From Catellatospora sp. KI3 (GTDB taxonomy: Bacteria > Actinomycetota > Actinomycetes > Mycobacteriales > Micromonosporaceae): a stretch of 64,000 nt of DNA. The stretch is taken from assembly GCF_029948125.1 (NCBI RefSeq), contig NZ_JASAMB010000026.1:1-64000 (forward strand). Direction: 5' to 3'. A program made the position numbers and the translations under genes. Shown here in pieces: positions 8,891 through 62,348 of this stretch (its first letter is position 1; each line of letters begins with the position of its first letter). The notes beneath the pieces are model-generated. The model was given only the letters and a program-made list of their open reading frames with translations, had not been told where the DNA came from and searched no databases.

Positions 8891-8986
8891 ATCTAAAAAG
8901 TATTGACTCCGGCCAAGTGGCAGTCATAATTTTCACTGTCTCGATCGAGCCGTGAACATAATGCTCGCCGTCCCCCGGAGGTCCTC

Positions 8987-10356
8987 ATGTTCCGAAAACC
9001 CGCTGTGTCGAGTGCGGCGGTCCTGCTGCTCGCCGCCGGGCTGGTCAGTGTCGCCCAGCCCTTGCCCGCGGCCGCTGCCAGCTGCAGCGTCCTGTTCGAC
9101 GACTTCCAGTACAGCTCGTCGAGCGACCCGGCGCTGGCCGCGCACCACTGGACGGTCCGCGGCGGGGCGGCGGACCGGGCATCCCCGGGGCCTCCTGGCT
9201 GCCGGCCAACGTGACGTTCCCCGTCGCGGACGGGCAGAAGGTCCTCCAGCTGTCGTCCTACACCGACGGCACCGGCGCCGGTACGGCGCAGACGGAGATC
9301 TACCACCAGCGGAAGTTCTTCGAGGGCACCTATGCCAGCCGCGTCCGCTTCACCGACGCGCCGGTGTCCGGCAACGACGGCGACCGGATCGTGGAGACCT
9401 TCTTCACGATCACCCCGCTGGCGTACCCGATGGATCCGAGCTACGGCGAGATGGACTTCGAGTACCTGGCCAACGGCGGCTGGGGCGAGACGGGCTCGGC
9501 GTTCTTCGAGACCACCTGGGAGACCTACCAGCCCGACCCGTGGGTCGCCGACAACGTCCATGCCGTGCAGCGCCGCAGCTACGACGGCTGGCACGACCTG
9601 GTGGCGCAGGTCAGCGGCGGCCGGGTCAAGTACTTCATCGACGGCGCGCTGGTCGCCGACCACGGCGACAAGTTCTACCCCGAGACCCCGATGTCGATCA
9701 ACTACAATCTGTGGTTCATCGACAGCTCCGGCCACACCGGCGGGCGCAGCACCTACATCCAGCAGGTGGACTGGCTCTACTTCGCCGGCAACGAGGTGAT
9801 CTCGGGCGACGTCGCCCGCAACCGGGTCAACGCCTACCGGAGCCTGGGCACCACGCACGTGGACGCGGTGGGCACCGGCGGCACCTGCACCGAGCCCGGC
9901 GGCGGTGGCGGCGGCACGATCCCGTCCAGCACCTGGTACAGCATCGTCAACAAGAACAGCGGCAAGTGTGTCGACGCCCGTGCCTCGGGCACCGCCAACG
10001 GCACCGCGATCCAGCAGTACACCTGCAACAACACCTACGCCCAGCAGTACCTCTTCCAGCCCACGAGCGGCAGCGACGTCCGGGTCAACAACCGGAACAA
10101 CTCCGCCCAGGTCCTGGACGTGAGCGGGGTGTCGGCCGCCGACAACGCGGTCGTGCACCTGTGGGGCTACGTCGGCGGCGGCAACCAGCAGTGGACCCCG
10201 GTGGCCGAGGGCGGCGGCTACTACCACTTCGTGTCCGTGCACAGTGGCAAGTGCCTCGACGTCCCGAACGCCTCGACCGCGGACAGCGTGCAGCTGGTGC
10301 AGTACACCTGCAACGGCACCGGAGCGCAGTCGTTCCGGCTGGTGGCCCAGCCGTAG
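8987..10356 (+). pseudogene. Secreted GH16-like beta-glucanase with CBM13, frameshifted
   Basis: The first frame (from ATG 8987, GGAGG at 8977-8981) encodes a signal peptide and the start of a jelly-roll domain (SCSVLFDDFQYSSS). It stops at 9214. The rest lies in another frame up to 10356: GH16-like residues with E-M-D-F-E, the catalytic E-x-D-x-E signature, then a Gly-rich linker and a CBM13 trefoil with repeats ending QQYLF, QQWTP and QSFRL. Loss of one base in the GC-rich run at about 9160-9176 explains the break. Restoring it gives a continuous, sensible protein of about 456 residues. It may be a real mutation or a sequencing error. The likely substrate is a beta-1,3 or beta-1,3-1,4-glucan. 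Confidence 0.75.
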
Positions 10357-10455
10357 CTGCCCACCTCGTGAGCACGGGGGCTACCACTGCCGGTGGATGT
10401 CGTTCGACCTGTGCGGCGAGGGCGCGGCCGGCACGTACCGGATCATGAGAACAGG

Positions 10456-10491
10456 CGTCGACCCCGGCCGCTGGCACGGCCGGGGTCGACG
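10456..10491. terminator. Strong bidirectional hairpin terminator
   Basis: CGTCGACCCCGGCCG and its perfect complement form a 15-bp stem with a 6-base loop (CTGGCA). It lies between the convergent GH16 and amidohydrolase genes, 7 bp from the end of the latter. Confidence 0.8.
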
Positions 10492-10497
10492 CGGCGG

Positions 10498-12060
10498 CTA
10501 CGCCGCGCTCCAGCGGACCTCGCCGCCGACGACCGTCGACAGCACCCGCGTACGCAGGACCGCCTCGGGCGACTCCCGGTAGAGGTCGGTGTCGAGCACG
10601 GCGAAGTCGGCGAGCATCCCCGGCACCAGCAGGCCCTTGCGGCCGTCCTCACCGGCGGCGTAGGCGGCGCCGACCGTGTGCGCCCGGATCGCCTCGGCCA
10701 TGGTGATCCGCTGCTCGGGCTGCCAACCGCCGACCGGGCTGCCGTCGGGGCGGGTCCGGGTCACCGCCGCGTACAGGGCGGCGAACGGGTCCGGGTCCTC
10801 CACCGGCGCGTCGGAGCCGAAGGCCAGCGCGGCTCCGGCGTCGAGCAGGTCCCGCCAGGCGTACGAGGCCAGGTCGTGCCCGGCCAGCAGCGAGTCGACC
10901 AGGTCGATGTCGCTGGTGCAGTGGACCGGCTGCATCGACGCGACCACGCCGAGCCGCGCCAGCCGTGCCACGTCACGCCGCTGCAGGTGCTGCGCGTGCT
11001 CGATCCGGTGCCGCAGTCCGGGCGTCGGACCGAGCTCCTCGTACGCATCGAGCACCAGGTGGTTGGCCTGGTCGCCGATGGCGTGGGTGGCCACGGCGAT
11101 CCCCGCGCCGGCCGCGGTGCGGAACAGGCGCAGCAGCTCGTCGTAGGGCACGATCGCGATGCCGTGGTCGCCGCCGCGCATCGGCCTGCTCATGTGGCAG
11201 GTGTGCGAACCCAGCGCCCCGTCGCTGAACACCTTCAGCGGGCCGGTGCGGAACCAGTCGTCGCCCTGCCCGGTCCGGCGGCCCTCGGCCAGGGCCGTCT
11301 CCAGATGCTCCAGCCGGATCGCCTTGTGCACCCGCAGCTTCAGCTCGCCCTCGGCCCGCATCCGCAGGTACGCCGCCCGGCAGTCCTCGCCGTCGATGTC
11401 GTGCACGCTGGTGATGCCCAGCGCCAGCAGCCGCTCCTGGGCGGTGCGCAGCAGGCTGCCGAGGTCGTCGGCGGCCGTGAACCGGCGCAGCGGCTCGGTG
11501 GCGGTCTCGCGCAGGATCCCGGTCGGACGGCCCGCGTCGTCGCGGACGATGTGCCCGCCGACCGGGTCGGGGGTCGAGGCGCCGATCCCCGCCGCCCGCA
11601 GCGCGGCCGAGTTCACCCAGAGCGTGTGGACGTCGACGGTGGTCAGCGCGACCGGGTTGTCGGGGCACACCGCGTCGAGGGCGTGCCGGTCCGGCTGGAC
11701 CGGCGGCTCCCAGACGTTGCTGTTCCAGCGGCCGCCGAGCAGCCACTCGCCTGGCGGCAGGCCTGCCGCGCGGGCTGCGATCCGCTCCAGGGCCTGCGCC
11801 AGCGAGCGCGTCCCGGACAGGTCGACCGTGGTGAGGCTGTGGGCGTACTGCGCGGTGTGGATGTGACCGTCGTAGAACCCGGGGATCACCGCGGCGCCGT
11901 CGAGGTCGACGAGCTCCGCGCCCGGTCCGGTCGCGGCCCGGACCTCGGCCTCCGACCCGACGGACACCAGTTCGCCGTCTCGCACGGCGAGGGCCTGGGC
12001 GGTCGGCCGCCGGTCGTCGCCGGTGTGGATGGCCGCGTTGCGGAAGACCACGATGCTCAC
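10498..12060 (-). CDS. Amidohydrolase family protein (YtcJ/amidohydrolase_3 type)
   Basis: A 520-residue metal-dependent hydrolase. It has a small N-terminal beta-sandwich piece (FRNAAIHTGD) and a TIM barrel with metal ligands: H-x-H in GFYDGHIHT, a Lys in LKVFSDGALG, His in THAIGDQA and EHAQHL, and Asp in GSDAPVEDPDP. The barrel ends in the composite sandwich R-K-G-L-L-V-P-G-M-L-A-D-F-A-V-L-D. Members such as YtcJ and N-substituted formamide deformylase act on amide bonds. The substrate here cannot be deduced. There is no signal peptide. It is probably transcribed alone. Confidence 0.88.
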   Translation of the reverse strand: MSIVVFRNAAIHTGDDRRPTAQALAVRDGELVSVGSEAEVRAATGPGAELVDLDGAAVIPGFYDGHIHTAQYAHSLTTVDLSGTRSLAQALERIAARAAGLPPGEWLLGGRWNSNVWEPPVQPDRHALDAVCPDNPVALTTVDVHTLWVNSAALRAAGIGASTPDPVGGHIVRDDAGRPTGILRETATEPLRRFTAADDLGSLLRTAQERLLALGITSVHDIDGEDCRAAYLRMRAEGELKLRVHKAIRLEHLETALAEGRRTGQGDDWFRTGPLKVFSDGALGSHTCHMSRPMRGGDHGIAIVPYDELLRLFRTAAGAGIAVATHAIGDQANHLVLDAYEELGPTPGLRHRIEHAQHLQRRDVARLARLGVVASMQPVHCTSDIDLVDSLLAGHDLASYAWRDLLDAGAALAFGSDAPVEDPDPFAALYAAVTRTRPDGSPVGGWQPEQRITMAEAIRAHTVGAAYAAGEDGRKGLLVPGMLADFAVLDTDLYRESPEAVLRTRVLSTVVGGEVRWSAA

Positions 12061-56505: not shown

Positions 56506-56687
56506 CGGGCGGCGGAACCCACCGCCGAACGGAACGTGCTCGGTTTTCTGTTATCCGGCGGCCCGGCCGCCCGTCTACCTACGAGAGCGCAGACGCCCTG
56601 GCACATCCGGGGTCCAGGACGCCGAGGCAGCGGCGTACGTCGGCTGTGCTCCGTCCGTTCCATACGGCTCCGATCTGGGAGAGGAAT

Positions 56688-58499
56688 ATGTCAAGGATCA
56701 GGTTCGCGAGGACCCCGGCGCGGCTGGCCGGTCTGCCGAAGTCGGCCCGTGCCGCCGCGGCGTCGGCCGTGGCCGCCGTTCTCGTCATCGCCGGGGTGGT
56801 CGCCGGCAGCCCGCCGGCCAGCGCGGCGGCGGTGGCCGCCTTCCCCGGCGCCGCAGGCCCCGCGATGTACGCCACCGGCGGCCGCGGCGGCGACGTCTAC
56901 CACGTCACCAACCTCACCGACAACGCCGGCAGCCCGCAGCCCGGATCACTGCGCTACGGCATCAACACCACACCGGGCAGCGGCCGGACGATCGTGTTCG
57001 ACGTGGCGGGCACCATCAAGCTCTCCCCGGCGGGCCGCCAGGGCTGGCTGACCGTCAACTCCAGCAACCTGACCATCGCCGGGCAGACCGCGCCCAAGCC
57101 CGGGATCACGATCATGGGCCAGGCCACCAAGGTCACCGGTAAGAACATCATCATCCGGCACGTGAAGTTCCGCCCCGGCAAGGACCAGGCCAACCCCGGG
57201 TCGGCGACCAACGACGGCATCTGGATCACCGGCGACAACGTCATCGTCGATCACGTCTCGGTCAGCTGGGCCGATGACGAGGGCATCAGCTCCAGCGACG
57301 GCGCCGGCCAGGTCACTGTCCAGTACTCCATCGTGTCCGACGGGCTGAACTACGGCGGTCACAGCTACGGCGCCATCATCGGCAGCGACGTGACCGGCTC
57401 GAACATCGCCTACCACCACAACCTCTTCGCCCACCACAAGAGCCGCCTGCCGCGGCTGGGCAACGAGACCGGCGCGGTGACCAACGCCGAGTGGAGCAAC
57501 AACGTCATCTTCGAGGGCAAGGGCTACAGCGGCAACGACCAGCTCGCCAACGGAAACTTCGTGGGCAACACCTACCTGCGCCAGAACACCAGCAACGCAG
57601 AGGTGTTCACCGGGGCGACCGGTACGGCCGCGTACATCTCGGGCAACCGGGCCGACTACGACGGCGACTCGAACCTGACCAACGGCGTGGACATCGCCTG
57701 GGACCGGTTCACCGACGTCCCGACGCACAAGACGAGCCGCTTCAACGTACCCAACATCACCACCGAGTCGGCGGGCGCGGCGCTGACCAAGGTGCTGGAC
57801 GGTGCGGGCGCGTTCTGGTGGGCGCGCGACGCGGTCGACACCCGAGTGGTCAGCGAGACCCGGTCGACCAGCGGCTCGGTCGTCAACGAGCCCAACTCCA
57901 CCGAGTGGAGCAACCTGTGGAACGCCGGGCAGGTGAACAGCCCCAGCGGCTGGGACACCGACCGGGACGGCATGCCGAACGCCTGGGAGACGGCCGGCGG
58001 GCTGAACCCGAACGCCGACGACCACAACGGCGACGCCGACGGCGACGGCTACCGCAACATCGAGGAGTACCTCGACTACGCCGCGCAGGGCGGCAAGTCG
58101 CTGCCGACCCCGCCGCCCGCCTCGCCGTCGGCCTCGTCGACCCCCTCGCCCAGCCCCTCGACGAGCCCGTCGGCCAGCCCCACGCCGTCGACGCCGCCGC
58201 CCGCCGGTGCGTGCGGGGCGACCTACCTGACCACCAACTCCTGGCCGGGCGGTTTCCAGGGCGAGGTGACGGTGCGCGCGGGCAGCGCGCCCATCAGCGG
58301 CTGGACGGTCCGGTGGACGCTGGGCAGCGGCCAGGCCGTCACCCAGCTGTGGAGCGGCCGCCTCACCACCAGCGGTACGGCCGTGACCGTCGCCAACGAG
58401 TCCTACAACGGCGCGCTGGCGGCGTCGGCCTCCACCACGTTCGGCTTCACCGCGACCGGCACCGCGACCACCCCCGCCCTGACCTGCACCAGCCCGTAG
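56688..58499 (+). CDS. Secreted PL1-type pectate lyase with CBM2
   Basis: A 603-residue exported enzyme. Signal peptide 1 to about 47. Residues 50-400 form a right-handed beta-helix of the pectate lyase type: F-P-G-A-A-G near the start, G-S-L-R-Y, V-F-D-V-A-G-T-I, I-R-H-V-K-F-R-P-G, D-H-V-S-V-S-W-A-D-D and H-H-K-S-R-L-P-R-L-G, where the last Arg residues are candidates for the catalytic Arg. Residues 425-465 carry a calcium-type D-x-D-x-D-G repeat. A Pro/Ser/Thr linker and a CBM2 (506-603) follow. ATG 56688 is preceded by GGGAGAGGA. It cleaves de-esterified pectin by beta-elimination. Confidence 0.9.
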   Translation: MSRIRFARTPARLAGLPKSARAAAASAVAAVLVIAGVVAGSPPASAAAVAAFPGAAGPAMYATGGRGGDVYHVTNLTDNAGSPQPGSLRYGINTTPGSGRTIVFDVAGTIKLSPAGRQGWLTVNSSNLTIAGQTAPKPGITIMGQATKVTGKNIIIRHVKFRPGKDQANPGSATNDGIWITGDNVIVDHVSVSWADDEGISSSDGAGQVTVQYSIVSDGLNYGGHSYGAIIGSDVTGSNIAYHHNLFAHHKSRLPRLGNETGAVTNAEWSNNVIFEGKGYSGNDQLANGNFVGNTYLRQNTSNAEVFTGATGTAAYISGNRADYDGDSNLTNGVDIAWDRFTDVPTHKTSRFNVPNITTESAGAALTKVLDGAGAFWWARDAVDTRVVSETRSTSGSVVNEPNSTEWSNLWNAGQVNSPSGWDTDRDGMPNAWETAGGLNPNADDHNGDADGDGYRNIEEYLDYAAQGGKSLPTPPPASPSASSTPSPSPSTSPSASPTPSTPPPAGACGATYLTTNSWPGGFQGEVTVRAGSAPISGWTVRWTLGSGQAVTQLWSGRLTTSGTAVTVANESYNGALAASASTTFGFTATGTATTPALTCTSP

Positions 58500-58508
58500 T
58501 CACCGGGG

Positions 58509-58594
58509 CCCGCCGCCGTGCCGCCACCGCGCACGGCGGCGGGGATCCTCCGCCGACGGACCGGGGCGCGGCGGCCCACAGCGCCGCGCCCCGG
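58509..58594 (+). terminator. Two consecutive hairpins between pectate lyase and pectin methylesterase genes
   Basis: Hairpin 1 pairs CCCGCCGCCGTGC (58509-58521) with GCACGGCGGCGGG (58531-58543). Hairpin 2 pairs 58561-58573 with 58582-58594, also 13 bp. Such a double hairpin suggests that the two genes are mostly separate transcripts, or that the upstream message is protected. Confidence 0.7.
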
Positions 58595-58624
58595 TGCGCC
58601 ACCGATCAGATGAGGAGCAGATCC

Positions 58625-60037
58625 ATGCCTCACCACCTGTCCACCCGTCCGCGCCGAAGCACCCGGCTCGCCGTGGCGGCCACCGTCATCGCCGCCCTGG
58701 CCGCCTCGGCGTCGGTCGCGGTCGGCACCATCGCGCGGGCCGCCGCCGGATGCCAGGTCGGCTACCAGGTGACCGCCCAGTGGACCGGCGGGTTCACCGC
58801 CGCCGTCACGATCAAGAACCTAGGCGATCCGCTGACCGGCTGGAAGCTCGGCTGGACGTTCCCGGCCGGGCAGAGCATCACCCAGGCCTGGGGGTTCACG
58901 GCCGATCCGGTCTCCGGGACGGTCGTGGCCACCAACGTGGACTACAACGCCGCGATCGGCACCGGAGCCGTGGTCGAGGTCGGCTTCAACGGGAGCTGGA
59001 CCACCGGCAACCCCGTACCGGCCGCGTTCACGCTCAACGGCACCGCCTGCACGGGCGGCACCGCGCCCACGGCCGCGCCGACCACGGCGGCGCCGTCGCC
59101 GTCCGCCACACCCTCGCCCAAGCCGTCGGTCTCGCCCAGCGCGTCGCCCGTCAAGCCGACCGTCGCCAAGGACGGCACCGGCACCTACACCACGGTGCAG
59201 GCCGCGATCAACGCGGTGCCCTCCGGCAACACCACCCGCCGCGTCATCACGATCAAGGCAGGCACCTACCGCGAGCAGATCAAGGTGCCTGCCGACAAGC
59301 CGCTGATCACGCTGCAGGGCCTCGGCTCGGCGGCGGCCCAGACGGTGATCGTCTACAACCGCAACGCGGGCAGCTACGGCGCCACGGGCAGCGCCACCGC
59401 GTGGATCCTCGGCAAGAACTTCGCCGCGTCCAACCTGACGTTCTCCAACGACTTCGACGAGAACTCATCGGACACCGGCGACCAGGCGCTGGCCATGTAC
59501 ATGGACGGCGACCGGGCGGTGTTCAGCAACACCCGGTTCCTGGGCGACCAGGACACGCTGCGGGTCGAGGACGGCAACCGGGCCTACTTCACCGGCAGCT
59601 ACGTCGAGGGCACGGTCGACTTCATCTACAGCGGCGGCACCGCGGTCTTCAGCGGCTGCCAGATCTACGAGAAGCGCAGCTCCGGCGGCCCGATCACGGC
59701 AGCCTCGACGCCCACCGGGCAGAACTACGGGTTCCTGTTCTACCGGTCGACCGTCACTGGCGCCGCCGGCAACGTCACCCAGCTCGGGCGGCCCTGGCAG
59801 CAGGGCGCGCAGGTGGTGTTCCGGGAGTCCGACCTGAGTGCCACCATCAGGACCGCCCAGCCGTGGGCCGACATGGGCGACGCCGCCTGGAAGCAGGCCC
59901 GGTTCTTCGAGTACCGCAACACCGGCGCCGGGGCGACCGTCAACAGCAACCGCCCGCAGCTGACCGACGCCCAGGCCGCCAACTACACCCCGCAGAAGTA
60001 CCTGGCGGGCACCGACGGCTGGAACCCGGTCACCTAG
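58625..60037 (+). CDS. Secreted pectin methylesterase (CE8) with N-terminal CBM2
   Basis: A 470-residue exported enzyme. Signal peptide 1-40. CBM2 at 42-140 (C-Q-V-G-Y-Q-V-T-A-Q-W-T-G-G-F). A Pro/Thr/Ser linker of about 35 residues. The CE8 beta-helix from about 178 shows the family motifs G-T-Y-T-T-V-Q-A-A-I, G-T-Y-R-E, G-D-Q-A-L-A-M, F-L-G-D-Q-D-T-L (first catalytic Asp), G-T-V-D-F-I-Y-S-G (second Asp) and L-G-R-P-W (Arg). It removes methyl esters from homogalacturonan, giving the substrate of the pectate lyase encoded just upstream. ATG 58625 follows GATGAGGAG. Confidence 0.93.
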   Translation: MPHHLSTRPRRSTRLAVAATVIAALAASASVAVGTIARAAAGCQVGYQVTAQWTGGFTAAVTIKNLGDPLTGWKLGWTFPAGQSITQAWGFTADPVSGTVVATNVDYNAAIGTGAVVEVGFNGSWTTGNPVPAAFTLNGTACTGGTAPTAAPTTAAPSPSATPSPKPSVSPSASPVKPTVAKDGTGTYTTVQAAINAVPSGNTTRRVITIKAGTYREQIKVPADKPLITLQGLGSAAAQTVIVYNRNAGSYGATGSATAWILGKNFAASNLTFSNDFDENSSDTGDQALAMYMDGDRAVFSNTRFLGDQDTLRVEDGNRAYFTGSYVEGTVDFIYSGGTAVFSGCQIYEKRSSGGPITAASTPTGQNYGFLFYRSTVTGAAGNVTQLGRPWQQGAQVVFRESDLSATIRTAQPWADMGDAAWKQARFFEYRNTGAGATVNSNRPQLTDAQAANYTPQKYLAGTDGWNPVT

Positions 60038-60206: not shown

Positions 60207-62348
60207 ATGGCGACGAGCAGGCCCGGCGAGATGCCGGCGGCGGAGGTCGACGCCCTGGTCCGGGCCGCGCAGGCCGGCGACGAGGCGGCGTTCTCCGAAC
60301 TGGTCTCCGCCCACCTGCCGGTGCTGCAGGGCTTCGTCGGCCGGACGCTCAACGGGCACGCCGACGTCGACGACGTCGTGCAGGAGACCCTGGTCCGGGC
60401 CATGCGCGGGCTCGCCGGGCTGCGCGAGCCGGACAAGTTCCGCTCCTGGCTGCTGGCCATCGCCTACCGCGAGACGCAGGCGCTGCTGCGGCGGCGGACC
60501 GCGGACCCGTCGCGCGCGGGGGAGCCGGCGGCCGAACCGGTGGACCCGGACGGGGACTTCGCCGAGCGGACGGTGTCCGAACTCATGCTCGCCGACCAGC
60601 GCAGAGAGCTGGTGGCGGCGGCCCGCTGGCTGGACGTGGACGACCAGCGACTGCTGTCGCTGTGGTGGCAGGAGACCCTCGGGCAGCTGAGCCGGGGGCA
60701 GCTGGCGGCCGCGCTGTCGGTCAACCCCAAGCACGTCGCGGTACGGGTGCAGCGGATGCGCGCGCAGCTCGAGGCGGTCCGGGGCGTCATCCGCGCGCTG
60801 CGTGCCGCGCCGCGCTGCCCCGGCCTCGACGAGGCCGTCCAGGGCTGGAACGGCGTCGCCGACCCGCTGTGGCGCAAGCGGCTGACCCGGCACGTACGCG
60901 ACTGCGTGACCTGCGAACAGCACGCGCACGGTCTGGTGGCGCCCGAGGACCTGCTGCTCGGCATCACGGCCCTGCCGCTCCTGCTGGGCGTGGCCACGTC
61001 GGCCGCGGGAGGCGCGGCGAAGTGGTCTACGTGGGCGGCGGTCCGCGGGTACCTGTCCCGCAAGGCGGTCGCGGCGGCGGCGTCGTTGACGGTCGTCGCG
61101 GGCGGGGTGACGGCGTTCGCGGTGCTAGAGGAGCCGGCGACGCCGGACGCGCCCGCGTTCGTCAGCCCCGCCGTGTCCGGGCCGCCCCTGGCAACCGGGA
61201 TCCCCAGCGCGTCCCCCACCCGGTCGAGCACCCCGTCCCCGGCGGCCGCCGTCGGCTCGGGCGTCGCCACCGCCGACATCTTCGTCGCGCCGGGCGGCTC
61301 GGACTCCGGCGACGGCACCGCCGCGCGGCCGTACGCGACGCTGGGCAAGGCCGTCTCGGTGGTACGCGCCGGGCAGACCATCGCGCTGCGCGGCGGCACC
61401 TACCGGCCCACCGAGCCCGTGGAGATCAGCGGCAGCGGCACCGCCGAGCGGCGCATCACGATCAGCAACTACCGCGACGAGCGACCGGTGCTCGACTTCG
61501 GCCGGGTCCCGGCCGACAAGTGGGGGATCACCCAGCGCGCCGACTACGTCACGGTGCAGGGGCTGGAGATCATGAACTCGCGCAGCCACGCCTACGTCTG
61601 CCGGTCCTGCCGGTACGGGGTCTTCCAGCGGCTGGTCATCCACGACAACGCCCGGTCGTCGCTGCTGCTGCGCGATGCCGGCACGATCGGCAACAAGGTG
61701 CTCGACTGCGACTTCTTCGACAACCGCGACCCCGCCGCCCCGGGCAGCGTCGGCGTCGGGCTGGCCGTGACGTTCGGATCCGGCACCGGCAACCTGATCC
61801 GGGGCAACCGGGCGTTCCACAACGCCGACGACGGGTTCGACTTCAACGACTTCGCCGACCCGCTGACCGTCGAGTACAACCGCTCCTACGGCAACGGCGT
61901 GAACCGGTGGAGCCTGCCGGGCTGGGACAGCGACGGCGTCGGCTTCAGCATCGGCGGCGGCGACCGGGCGGTGACCGCCGCGCACGTGCTGCGGCACAAC
62001 GCGGCCTGGGACAACGCCGGTCACGGCTTCGACGACGGCGACGACAAGGGGGCGATGCGGCTGACCAACAACACCGCCTTCCGCAACGGGGGAGTCGGGT
62101 TCTTCCTGCGCGCGACGCCGGGAACCGTGCGTGACAACGTCGCGGTGGGCAACAGCCCGGTGGACGCGGTCGTCGCGGCCGCGACGGGGGCGGGGAACTC
62201 CTGGCAGACCGGCGACGGCACCACCGCGCTGTTCCGCTCCACCGACCCGCGCGCGGCCGAGGGCCGGCGCGCGCCGGACGGCACCCTGCCCGACACCCTC
62301 TTCCTGGCCACGCGCAGCGGGATCGGCGCCGACATGTCCGGCGGTTAG
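60207..62348 (+). CDS. Membrane-anchored ECF sigma factor fused to a PL9-like pectate-lyase beta-helix
   Basis: A 713-residue protein. Residues 15-98 are sigma region 2 (DDVVQETLVRAMRG, DKFRSWLLAIAYRE). Residues 125-195 are sigma region 4. H229, C233 and C236 give an H-x3-C-x2-C motif, as in zinc-binding anti-sigma domains. Residues 286-307 are a transmembrane helix preceded by R-K (cytoplasmic N-terminus). A Pro/Ser linker (308-355) leads to a right-handed beta-helix (356-713) starting I-F-V-A-P-G-G-S-D-S-G-D-G-T, as in PL9 pectate lyases. A calcium-site-like A-D-D-G-F-D-F-N-D is at 540-548. The PL9 catalytic Lys position (expected G-N-G-F-K-L-G-G) reads G-V-G-F-S-I-G-G, with S581. The strong start has GAGGAG at 60196-60201. 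It probably senses pectin directly. Confidence 0.9.
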   Translation: MATSRPGEMPAAEVDALVRAAQAGDEAAFSELVSAHLPVLQGFVGRTLNGHADVDDVVQETLVRAMRGLAGLREPDKFRSWLLAIAYRETQALLRRRTADPSRAGEPAAEPVDPDGDFAERTVSELMLADQRRELVAAARWLDVDDQRLLSLWWQETLGQLSRGQLAAALSVNPKHVAVRVQRMRAQLEAVRGVIRALRAAPRCPGLDEAVQGWNGVADPLWRKRLTRHVRDCVTCEQHAHGLVAPEDLLLGITALPLLLGVATSAAGGAAKWSTWAAVRGYLSRKAVAAAASLTVVAGGVTAFAVLEEPATPDAPAFVSPAVSGPPLATGIPSASPTRSSTPSPAAAVGSGVATADIFVAPGGSDSGDGTAARPYATLGKAVSVVRAGQTIALRGGTYRPTEPVEISGSGTAERRITISNYRDERPVLDFGRVPADKWGITQRADYVTVQGLEIMNSRSHAYVCRSCRYGVFQRLVIHDNARSSLLLRDAGTIGNKVLDCDFFDNRDPAAPGSVGVGLAVTFGSGTGNLIRGNRAFHNADDGFDFNDFADPLTVEYNRSYGNGVNRWSLPGWDSDGVGFSIGGGDRAVTAAHVLRHNAAWDNAGHGFDDGDDKGAMRLTNNTAFRNGGVGFFLRATPGTVRDNVAVGNSPVDAVVAAATGAGNSWQTGDGTTALFRSTDPRAAEGRRAPDGTLPDTLFLATRSGIGADMSGG

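Follow-up and report, generated by a model that had tools for sequence, protein, structure and literature searches.

The fusion protein and its domains

The window analysed here is a stretch of 64,000 nucleotides (positions 1–64,000, forward strand) of contig NZ_JASAMB010000026.1 of Catellatospora sp. KI3 (NCBI RefSeq assembly GCF_029948125.1), a member of the Micromonosporaceae. Near its end, downstream of genes for a pectate lyase and a pectin methylesterase, lies a single gene that joins an extracytoplasmic function (ECF) sigma factor to a right-handed β-helix of the polysaccharide lyase family PL9. An earlier note on this DNA had described an uninterrupted 713-codon frame with sigma regions 2 and 4, a transmembrane helix and a PL9-like β-helix beside the two pectin genes, and had proposed that the protein is a pectin sensor; the description of the frame, domains and neighbours is borne out by the analyses that follow. 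The features of the gene are these.

60207–62348, + strand: fusion gene for ECF sigma, anti-sigma-like segment, membrane helix and PL9 β-helix, 713 amino acids (open frame; alignment of 15 full-length members including that of the window; 33 PL9 fusions)
60288–60773, + strand: ECF sigma domains 2 and 4, residues 28–189 (TIGR02937, Sigma70_r2, Foldseek)
60816–60956, + strand: anti-sigma-like zinc domain, C204-x24-H229-x3-C233-x2-C236 and the helices after it (four invariant residues; model helices)
61065–61130, + strand: predicted transmembrane helix, residues 287–308, with RGYLSRK before it (hydropathy peak 1.96; model confidence low there)
61131–61256, + strand: linker rich in Pro, Ser, Thr and Ala, residues 309–350, delimited by eye (translation; low pLDDT over 261–350)
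61260–62306, + strand: PL9-type right-handed β-helix, residues 352–700, presumed sensor domain
61755–61757, + strand: codon of V517, at the position of Pel9A calcium ligand D209 (alignment)
61947–61949, + strand: codon of S581, at the position of Pel9A catalytic base K273 (alignment)

The frame runs for 713 codons without interruption from an ATG at 60207, with GAGGAG 5 nt 5′ of it. TIGR02937 matches residues 28–189 over its cut-off (E = 5.9e-16) and Pfam Sigma70_r2 matches residues 32–98, while none of the Pfam models for sigma region 4 matched the fusion protein. A Foldseek search with the N-terminal model returned sigma chains (sigmaE, SigW) as its top rows, and together these matches identify the N-terminal part as an ECF sigma factor with regions 2 and 4. 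The earlier note had allowed for a sequencing error joining two genes between about nt 61000 and 61300. The same continuous fusion recurs in many other assemblies, among them that of the nearest relative in the genus (L021, 81% identity) and those of the 33 PL9 fusions counted after removal of duplicates, and an assembly or sequencing error that fused two genes can therefore be given practically no weight.

Residues 204–236 carry the motif of a zinc anti-sigma domain. C204, H229, C233 and C236 are invariant in 33 of 33 PL9 fusions and likewise in all 72 members of an alignment spanning several sensor classes, which holds 72 of 74 listed references from a list free of near-copies and late-starting matches. 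The model places helices at residues 205–210, 220–232, 234–240 and 246–250, and the Hx3Cx2C motif spans the second and third of these, the arrangement given for class I (zinc) anti-sigma domains in the excerpts of PMC7406223 used here (all PMC articles below are likewise cited from excerpts). The earlier note had remarked that sigma factors are normally held by a separate anti-sigma factor; because this motif lies inside the chain, the anti-sigma factor is probably fused into it rather than absent. One relative gave a weak match to the RsrA model TIGR03988 (E = 0.064, under the cut-off), and no clear anti-sigma chain was present among the best 50 Foldseek rows listed for the N-terminal model.

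The hydrophobic stretch at about residues 287–308 is predicted to cross the membrane on the basis of hydropathy, and an earlier hydrophobic stretch lies upstream of it at 249–267. A two-helix topology with a cytoplasmic sensor was considered and is disfavoured by the basic residues before the second stretch and by the nature of the outer domains; for the same two reasons an outward-facing C-terminus is favoured, which would place the β-helix outside the cell.

The outer half matches Pel9A-like_beta_helix (Pfam) above the cut-off and PDB entry 1ru4 over residues 349–700 (E = 5.9e-35), and has the fold of a PL9 β-helix. In Pel9A, D209, D233 and D237 form calcium sites and K273 is the catalytic base (PMC10992409). 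The window protein retains D233 and D237 and has valine in place of D209 and serine in place of K273. Since the base and one calcium ligand have been lost, its β-helix is, judged by these residues, better called a pseudoenzyme. All four residues are present in five of the 33 PL9 fusions. Among PL9 proteins without a matching sigma half they are present in 21 of 21 from the same bacterial family and in 71 of 71 drawn from many phyla, the last set having been retrieved with patterns that cover the D233/D234 stretch, which makes it unbiased only for D209, D237 and K273. The nearer control consists of 19 of 20 fetched loci with a PL9 match (L303 has none) with L035 and L037 added; the 71-locus control excludes L081–L087 and L089, and L088 is counted among the sigma-less PL9 proteins.

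The loss is unevenly distributed over the two subclades of PL9 fusions defined below. In subclade I, to which the window protein belongs, K273 is retained in 0/13 and D209 in 0/13. In subclade II, D209 is kept in 20/20, and the residue at 273 is lysine in 15 members, arginine in 4 and aspartate in 1. A second PL9 fusion of the own genome (C6:95726; 8924–11095 of locus L025), 52% identical to that of the window, retains its active-site residues in full and may be active. These fusions bear on an alternative in which the protein works as a pectate lyase displayed on the membrane and makes the signal itself, the sigma part being secondary: the five complete sets and the residues of subclade II (D209 in all 20, K or R at 273 in 19) would suit it, the residues of the window's own subclade speak against it, and we consider it very improbable. 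For the window protein itself an active lyase is rejected on the residues at 209 and 273, a rejection that does not extend to subclade II.

A CxxC motif in the β-helix (C465 and C468; 61599–61610) is invariant in 33/33 fusions and is possibly a disulfide or metal site. It was dropped as a hallmark of fusions only, since it also occurs in 2/21 and 4/71 of the sigma-less PL9 proteins.

Relatives and classes of outer domain

Homologues sharing both halves, a search for which the earlier note had suggested, were readily found. Among 61 near genomes, the fusion of both halves is present in 11 of 11 Catellatospora genomes, that of strain KI3 included, and in two others (G019 and G030). Matches to the sigma half at E values up to 1e-30 occur in at least 49 of 101 sampled genomes of the family (best 22 candidates per genome). 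In a wider set of 148 genomes of the class (best seven candidates each), a match to both halves was found only in the own genome among the matches listed; sigma halves joined to a CAP, a GH128-type or an unknown domain do occur in other genomes, the unknown domain also in genomes outside the family.

In total, 110 fusions were called in 122 sequences, and removal of the duplicate loci L226 and L277 left 108. Sorted by outer part, these comprise 36 AbfB, 33 PL9 and 24 GH128-type fusions, four of one unknown kind, two CAP, two ricin-B and seven others. One locus (L288) contains two AbfB fusions and is counted twice in the 36; two of the 40 AbfB promoter sites given below are likewise counted twice. 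The class called 'other' in the comparisons holds 15 of the 108 (truncated, unclassified and small classes). Of 13 sequences without a called fusion, 11 were re-read and kept out of the class, residue, linkage and promoter counts; the other two are L084, where the match lies at a contig end, and L088.

In a midpoint-rooted tree of 116 sigma halves (L226, L277, L284, L036 and L204 omitted, ten re-read rows added), the PL9 fusions form one group of 36 rows with support 96/82, which splits into subclade I (16 rows, the window among them) and subclade II (20 rows). The group also includes L194 and L196, which look like truncated PL9 members, and L189, whose outer part is unclassified.

We take Glyco_hydro_cc to be GH128, AbfB to be CBM42, Pectate_lyase_4 to be PL1 and Pectate_lyase to be PL3. 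The GH128-type sensors (L203:6559–8343 and 23 further loci) retain FNEPD and TE[FY], presumably the catalytic motifs of this type, in 24/24 cases (19 by pattern, five by eye). Two of the AbfB fusions, L035:16145–17737 and L036:556–2100, are in the own genome, and there are 34 further ones. In L224, L225, L200 and L201 the outer domain has no Pfam match (L200 being the one examined), and two of these four adjoin a methylesterase-like gene. Five loci (L194, L196, L204, L250 and L284) seem to carry a truncation or frameshift inside or ahead of the outer domain, through sequencing error or decay.

Neighbouring genes

The two genes upstream of the fusion gene, each with a CBM2 module, and the promoter candidate that precedes them are as follows.

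56549–56576, + strand: candidate ECF promoter TGTTAT-N17-CGTCT (the 8.2 Mb genome has five sites of the form GTTATN{16,17}CGTCT, this one included)
56688–58499, + strand: pectate lyase (Pectate_lyase_4) with CBM2, starting at ATG with GGGAGAGG upstream; signal peptide by eye
58625–60037, + strand: pectin methylesterase (Pectinesterase) with CBM2; signal peptide by eye

The Pectate_lyase_4 match (E = 8.1e-5, 22.8 bits) is slightly below the Pfam cut-off of 24. All three genes lie on one strand, with gaps of 125 nt between lyase and methylesterase and of 169 nt between methylesterase and fusion gene, and we infer that the sensor is co-transcribed with the two enzymes as an operon. The first gap (58500–58624) contains GC-rich inverted repeats, recognized by eye, that could tune readthrough in this presumed operon.

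Most of the class shares this adjacency: 31 of 33 PL9 fusions have a pectin gene (similar to a lyase, a methylesterase or a sigma-less PL9 protein) no more than 5 kb away. The figures are 0 of 36 for AbfB fusions, 0 of 24 for GH128-type fusions and 4 of 15 for others, the four being L194, L196 and two of the unknown outer-domain class; for PL9, AbfB and GH128 the association of class with linkage has a Fisher P of 1.2e-22 with relatives treated as independent. Neighbouring genes were named by BLAST against six reference proteins, with examples confirmed by Pfam. The order, side and strand of the pectin genes vary across the PL9 loci. Recurrent neighbours of the AbfB fusions are a GH10 xylanase cluster (18/36 fusions) and a GH43 cluster (9/36), both named from cluster representatives, and neither is found within three genes of a PL9 or GH128-type fusion. 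For the GH128-type loci, the one recurrent neighbour cluster annotated is an α-amylase cluster beside 4/24, with no obvious match to the sensor. The outer domain thus predicts the type of neighbouring enzyme for the PL9 and AbfB classes, as PL9 adjoins pectin genes and AbfB adjoins GH10 and GH43 genes.

The same receptor might respond to another ligand, such as rhamnogalacturonan I or another acidic polysaccharide, with the pectin genes forming part of the response. Pectate lyases and pectin methylesterases have homogalacturonan as their usual substrate, and as these are the genes that are linked, we judge such a ligand unlikely.

Candidate promoter

The candidate promoter lies about 110 nt 5′ of the pectate lyase ATG at 56688. 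A dyad scan of the PL9 loci gave GTTAT-N17-CGTC as one of many top rows, and it alone was taken further although many other dyads ranked equally high; most of the latter seem to be coding sequence, because the gene caller had shortened some starts. Of the 23 sites in the PL9 loci, 19 are found in the 450 bp preceding a fusion or pectin gene, a territory that makes up 3.5% of the total length; by this test a strict site is present at 19 of 33 loci. The test is partly circular, as the motif was derived from the same loci. When the GH128-type loci are scanned alone, independently of the PL9 loci, GTTAT-16-CGTC(T) and shifted versions of it head the list; all 13 of their sites, spread over 13 of 24 loci, precede the fusion gene itself, which suggests that these fusions are autoregulated.

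The AbfB fusions have one GTTAT/CGTCT site in 523 kb. A looser form, GTTA-N17/18-CGTC[GT], has 22 sites in PL9, 13 in GH128-type and three in AbfB loci, against five, none and six, respectively, for a control with the halves reversed. The AbfB loci have a form of their own, GTTA-N18/20-GTCG (mostly TGTTAT or TGTTAC, N17, AGTCG or GGTCG). This form, defined post hoc, has 40 sites (38 distinct) in 523 kb of AbfB loci; the GH128-type loci (361 kb) have none, the PL9 loci (582 kb) have 10 and the other loci (198 kb) have 4. As the AbfB form ends in AGTCG or GGTCG and that of the PL9 and GH128 classes in CGTCT, the comparison suggests a shared −35 element with class-specific −10 elements.

The own genome has five GTTATN{16,17}CGTCT sites (one for the reversed control), two of which lie in front of pectate lyase genes, one next to each of its two PL9 fusions. 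The remaining three are at C9:70931, C10:133872 and C4:165679. All 11 genus genomes have an identical copy of that at C9:70931, and 9 of 11 have a nearly identical copy of that at C10:133872; these two may be real elements of another kind. Within the window's subclade (13 fusions) a strict site is present only in the window, L021 and L198, and four more subclade I loci have candidates with one or two mismatches, including CATCT and TGTTGT variants. A second dyad, GTAGA-N19-ATAA, precedes the PL9 fusion genes in 8 of 20 groups, is absent from the background sequences, and could be a promoter of the sensor genes' own.

Proposed mechanism

Taken with its relatives and neighbours, the window protein is, in our assessment, quite probably a one-polypeptide transmembrane sigma receptor that senses pectin and switches on the adjoining pectin genes. 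In the cytoplasm, sigma regions 2 and 4 would probably be kept inactive by the attached zinc anti-sigma-like domain, while the predicted helix would span the membrane and the Pro/Ser-rich linker would bear the PL9-derived β-helix outside. Given the loss of the catalytic base and a calcium ligand, the β-helix most likely binds a pectic polymer or oligogalacturonides without cutting. Binding would most likely lead to release of the sigma factor by proteolysis, first extracytoplasmic and then intramembrane, the route proposed for ECF52/ECF53; failing that, it would lead to a conformational change. The freed sigma factor would take RNA polymerase to TGTTAT-N16/17-CGTCT promoters, chiefly that at 56549–56576 in front of the lyase and methylesterase genes; because the fusion gene is the next one downstream on the same strand, the level of the sensor itself could rise through the same promoter.

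Signalling by conformational change, with the full-length chain remaining at the membrane and no proteolytic release, is rather unlikely: such activation has been described for extended ECFs such as ECF41 and ECF238, but for the membrane-linked ECF48/52/53 proteolysis is expected, and IutY is reported to be cleaved by Prc and RseP (PMC8999054).

Several observations weigh against the receptor reading. Model confidence is low over residues 261–350, membrane helix included, and hydropathy gives two hydrophobic peaks in 52 of 107 members (one in 50, none in five). No Pfam or NCBIfam family recognises the anti-sigma segment of the window protein, and two PL9 fusions (L190 and L193) have no recognised pectin gene nearby. 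As to the promoter, 14 of 33 PL9 loci, ten of them in the window's subclade, fail the 450 bp test for want of a strict site, and the window's fusion gene has none immediately 5′ of it. Across the 11 genus genomes the signal is weak, with 39 GTTATN{16,17}CGTCT sites as against 24 for the reversed control. Of the 39, 12 adjoin PL9 fusions (one of these on a duplicate contig), seven are single, and 11 and nine belong to two conserved sites unrelated to PL9 fusions.

For the Micromonosporaceae more broadly, one can imagine a modular set of one-protein sigma receptors that use retired or active enzymes and binding modules (PL9, AbfB, GH128-type and others) as plug-in sensors, with matching degradation genes tied to the PL9 and AbfB classes at least and with −10 elements that differ by class (CGTCT for PL9 and GH128, AGTCG or GGTCG for AbfB); the window protein would then be a lyase turned pure receptor, kept alongside a paralogue that retains its active-site residues. 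We hold the case for and against this wider picture to be evenly balanced. In our judgement, little is known, outside the clostridial SigI/RsgI systems, of the ways in which Gram-positive soil bacteria detect insoluble plant polymers that cannot be taken up. If the proposal is right, a single chain that connects an outer receptor of pectin type with the choice of promoter would be the simplest route of this kind. The co-occurrence in one genome of a candidate promoter, a disabled sensor and a paralogue with preserved active-site residues makes the sensing idea put forward for ECF52/ECF53 directly testable, and interchangeable sensors might find use in polysaccharide-responsive gene switches.

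Comparison with known systems

The closest known systems are ECF52 and ECF53. The earlier note had mentioned that ECF sigma factors with regulatory C-terminal extensions, ECF53 among them, are known in actinobacteria, and this agrees with the literature (PMC8999054, PMC5826349, PMC10766802). A zinc finger and membrane helices are described for ECF48/52/53 or ECF52 (PMC8999054, PMC5826349), and some ECF52 and ECF53 members have predicted glycosyl hydrolase and carbohydrate-binding domains that are experimentally unvalidated (PMC10766802). Like these proteins, of which SCO4117 is an example, the window protein combines a sigma factor, a zinc finger (by motif), a membrane helix (by hydropathy only), a proline-rich linker and a carbohydrate-related outer domain in one chain in an actinobacterium (PMC5826349, PMC8999054, PMC10766802). 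SCO4117 differs in its carbohydrate-binding module and developmental role, and the excerpts describing ECF52/ECF53 mention no PL9 sensor, active-site loss or link to pectin genes. Among the literature matches listed there was no sigma factor with a PL9 domain, although an earlier mention may exist in key papers outside these matches. Of the earlier note's interpretation, the one-chain architecture, the PL9-type outer part and the association with pectin genes are supported, and a candidate promoter comes in addition; the PL9 version is without precedent among those matches, but the general kind is known in outline from ECF52/ECF53.

IutY of Pseudomonas putida (ECF243) is likewise a sigma factor fused to a membrane-bound anti-sigma factor and released by proteolysis, but no polysaccharide sensor is mentioned for it in the excerpts of PMC8999054. 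With Pel9A and the PL9 lyases the window protein shares the fold over 349 residues and the calcium aspartates D233 and D237 (two of the three given in PMC10992409), and also D234; it differs in having lost the catalytic base and D209 and in being joined to a sigma factor. Sensors of extracellular polysaccharides, among them CBM42, GH10 and a PA14 domain that recognises pectin, likewise set sigma activity in the SigI/RsgI systems of Clostridium thermocellum (PMC12203970); there, sigma and anti-sigma are separate proteins and the periplasmic domain is autocleaving, whereas in the window protein sensor and sigma factor are carried on one chain.
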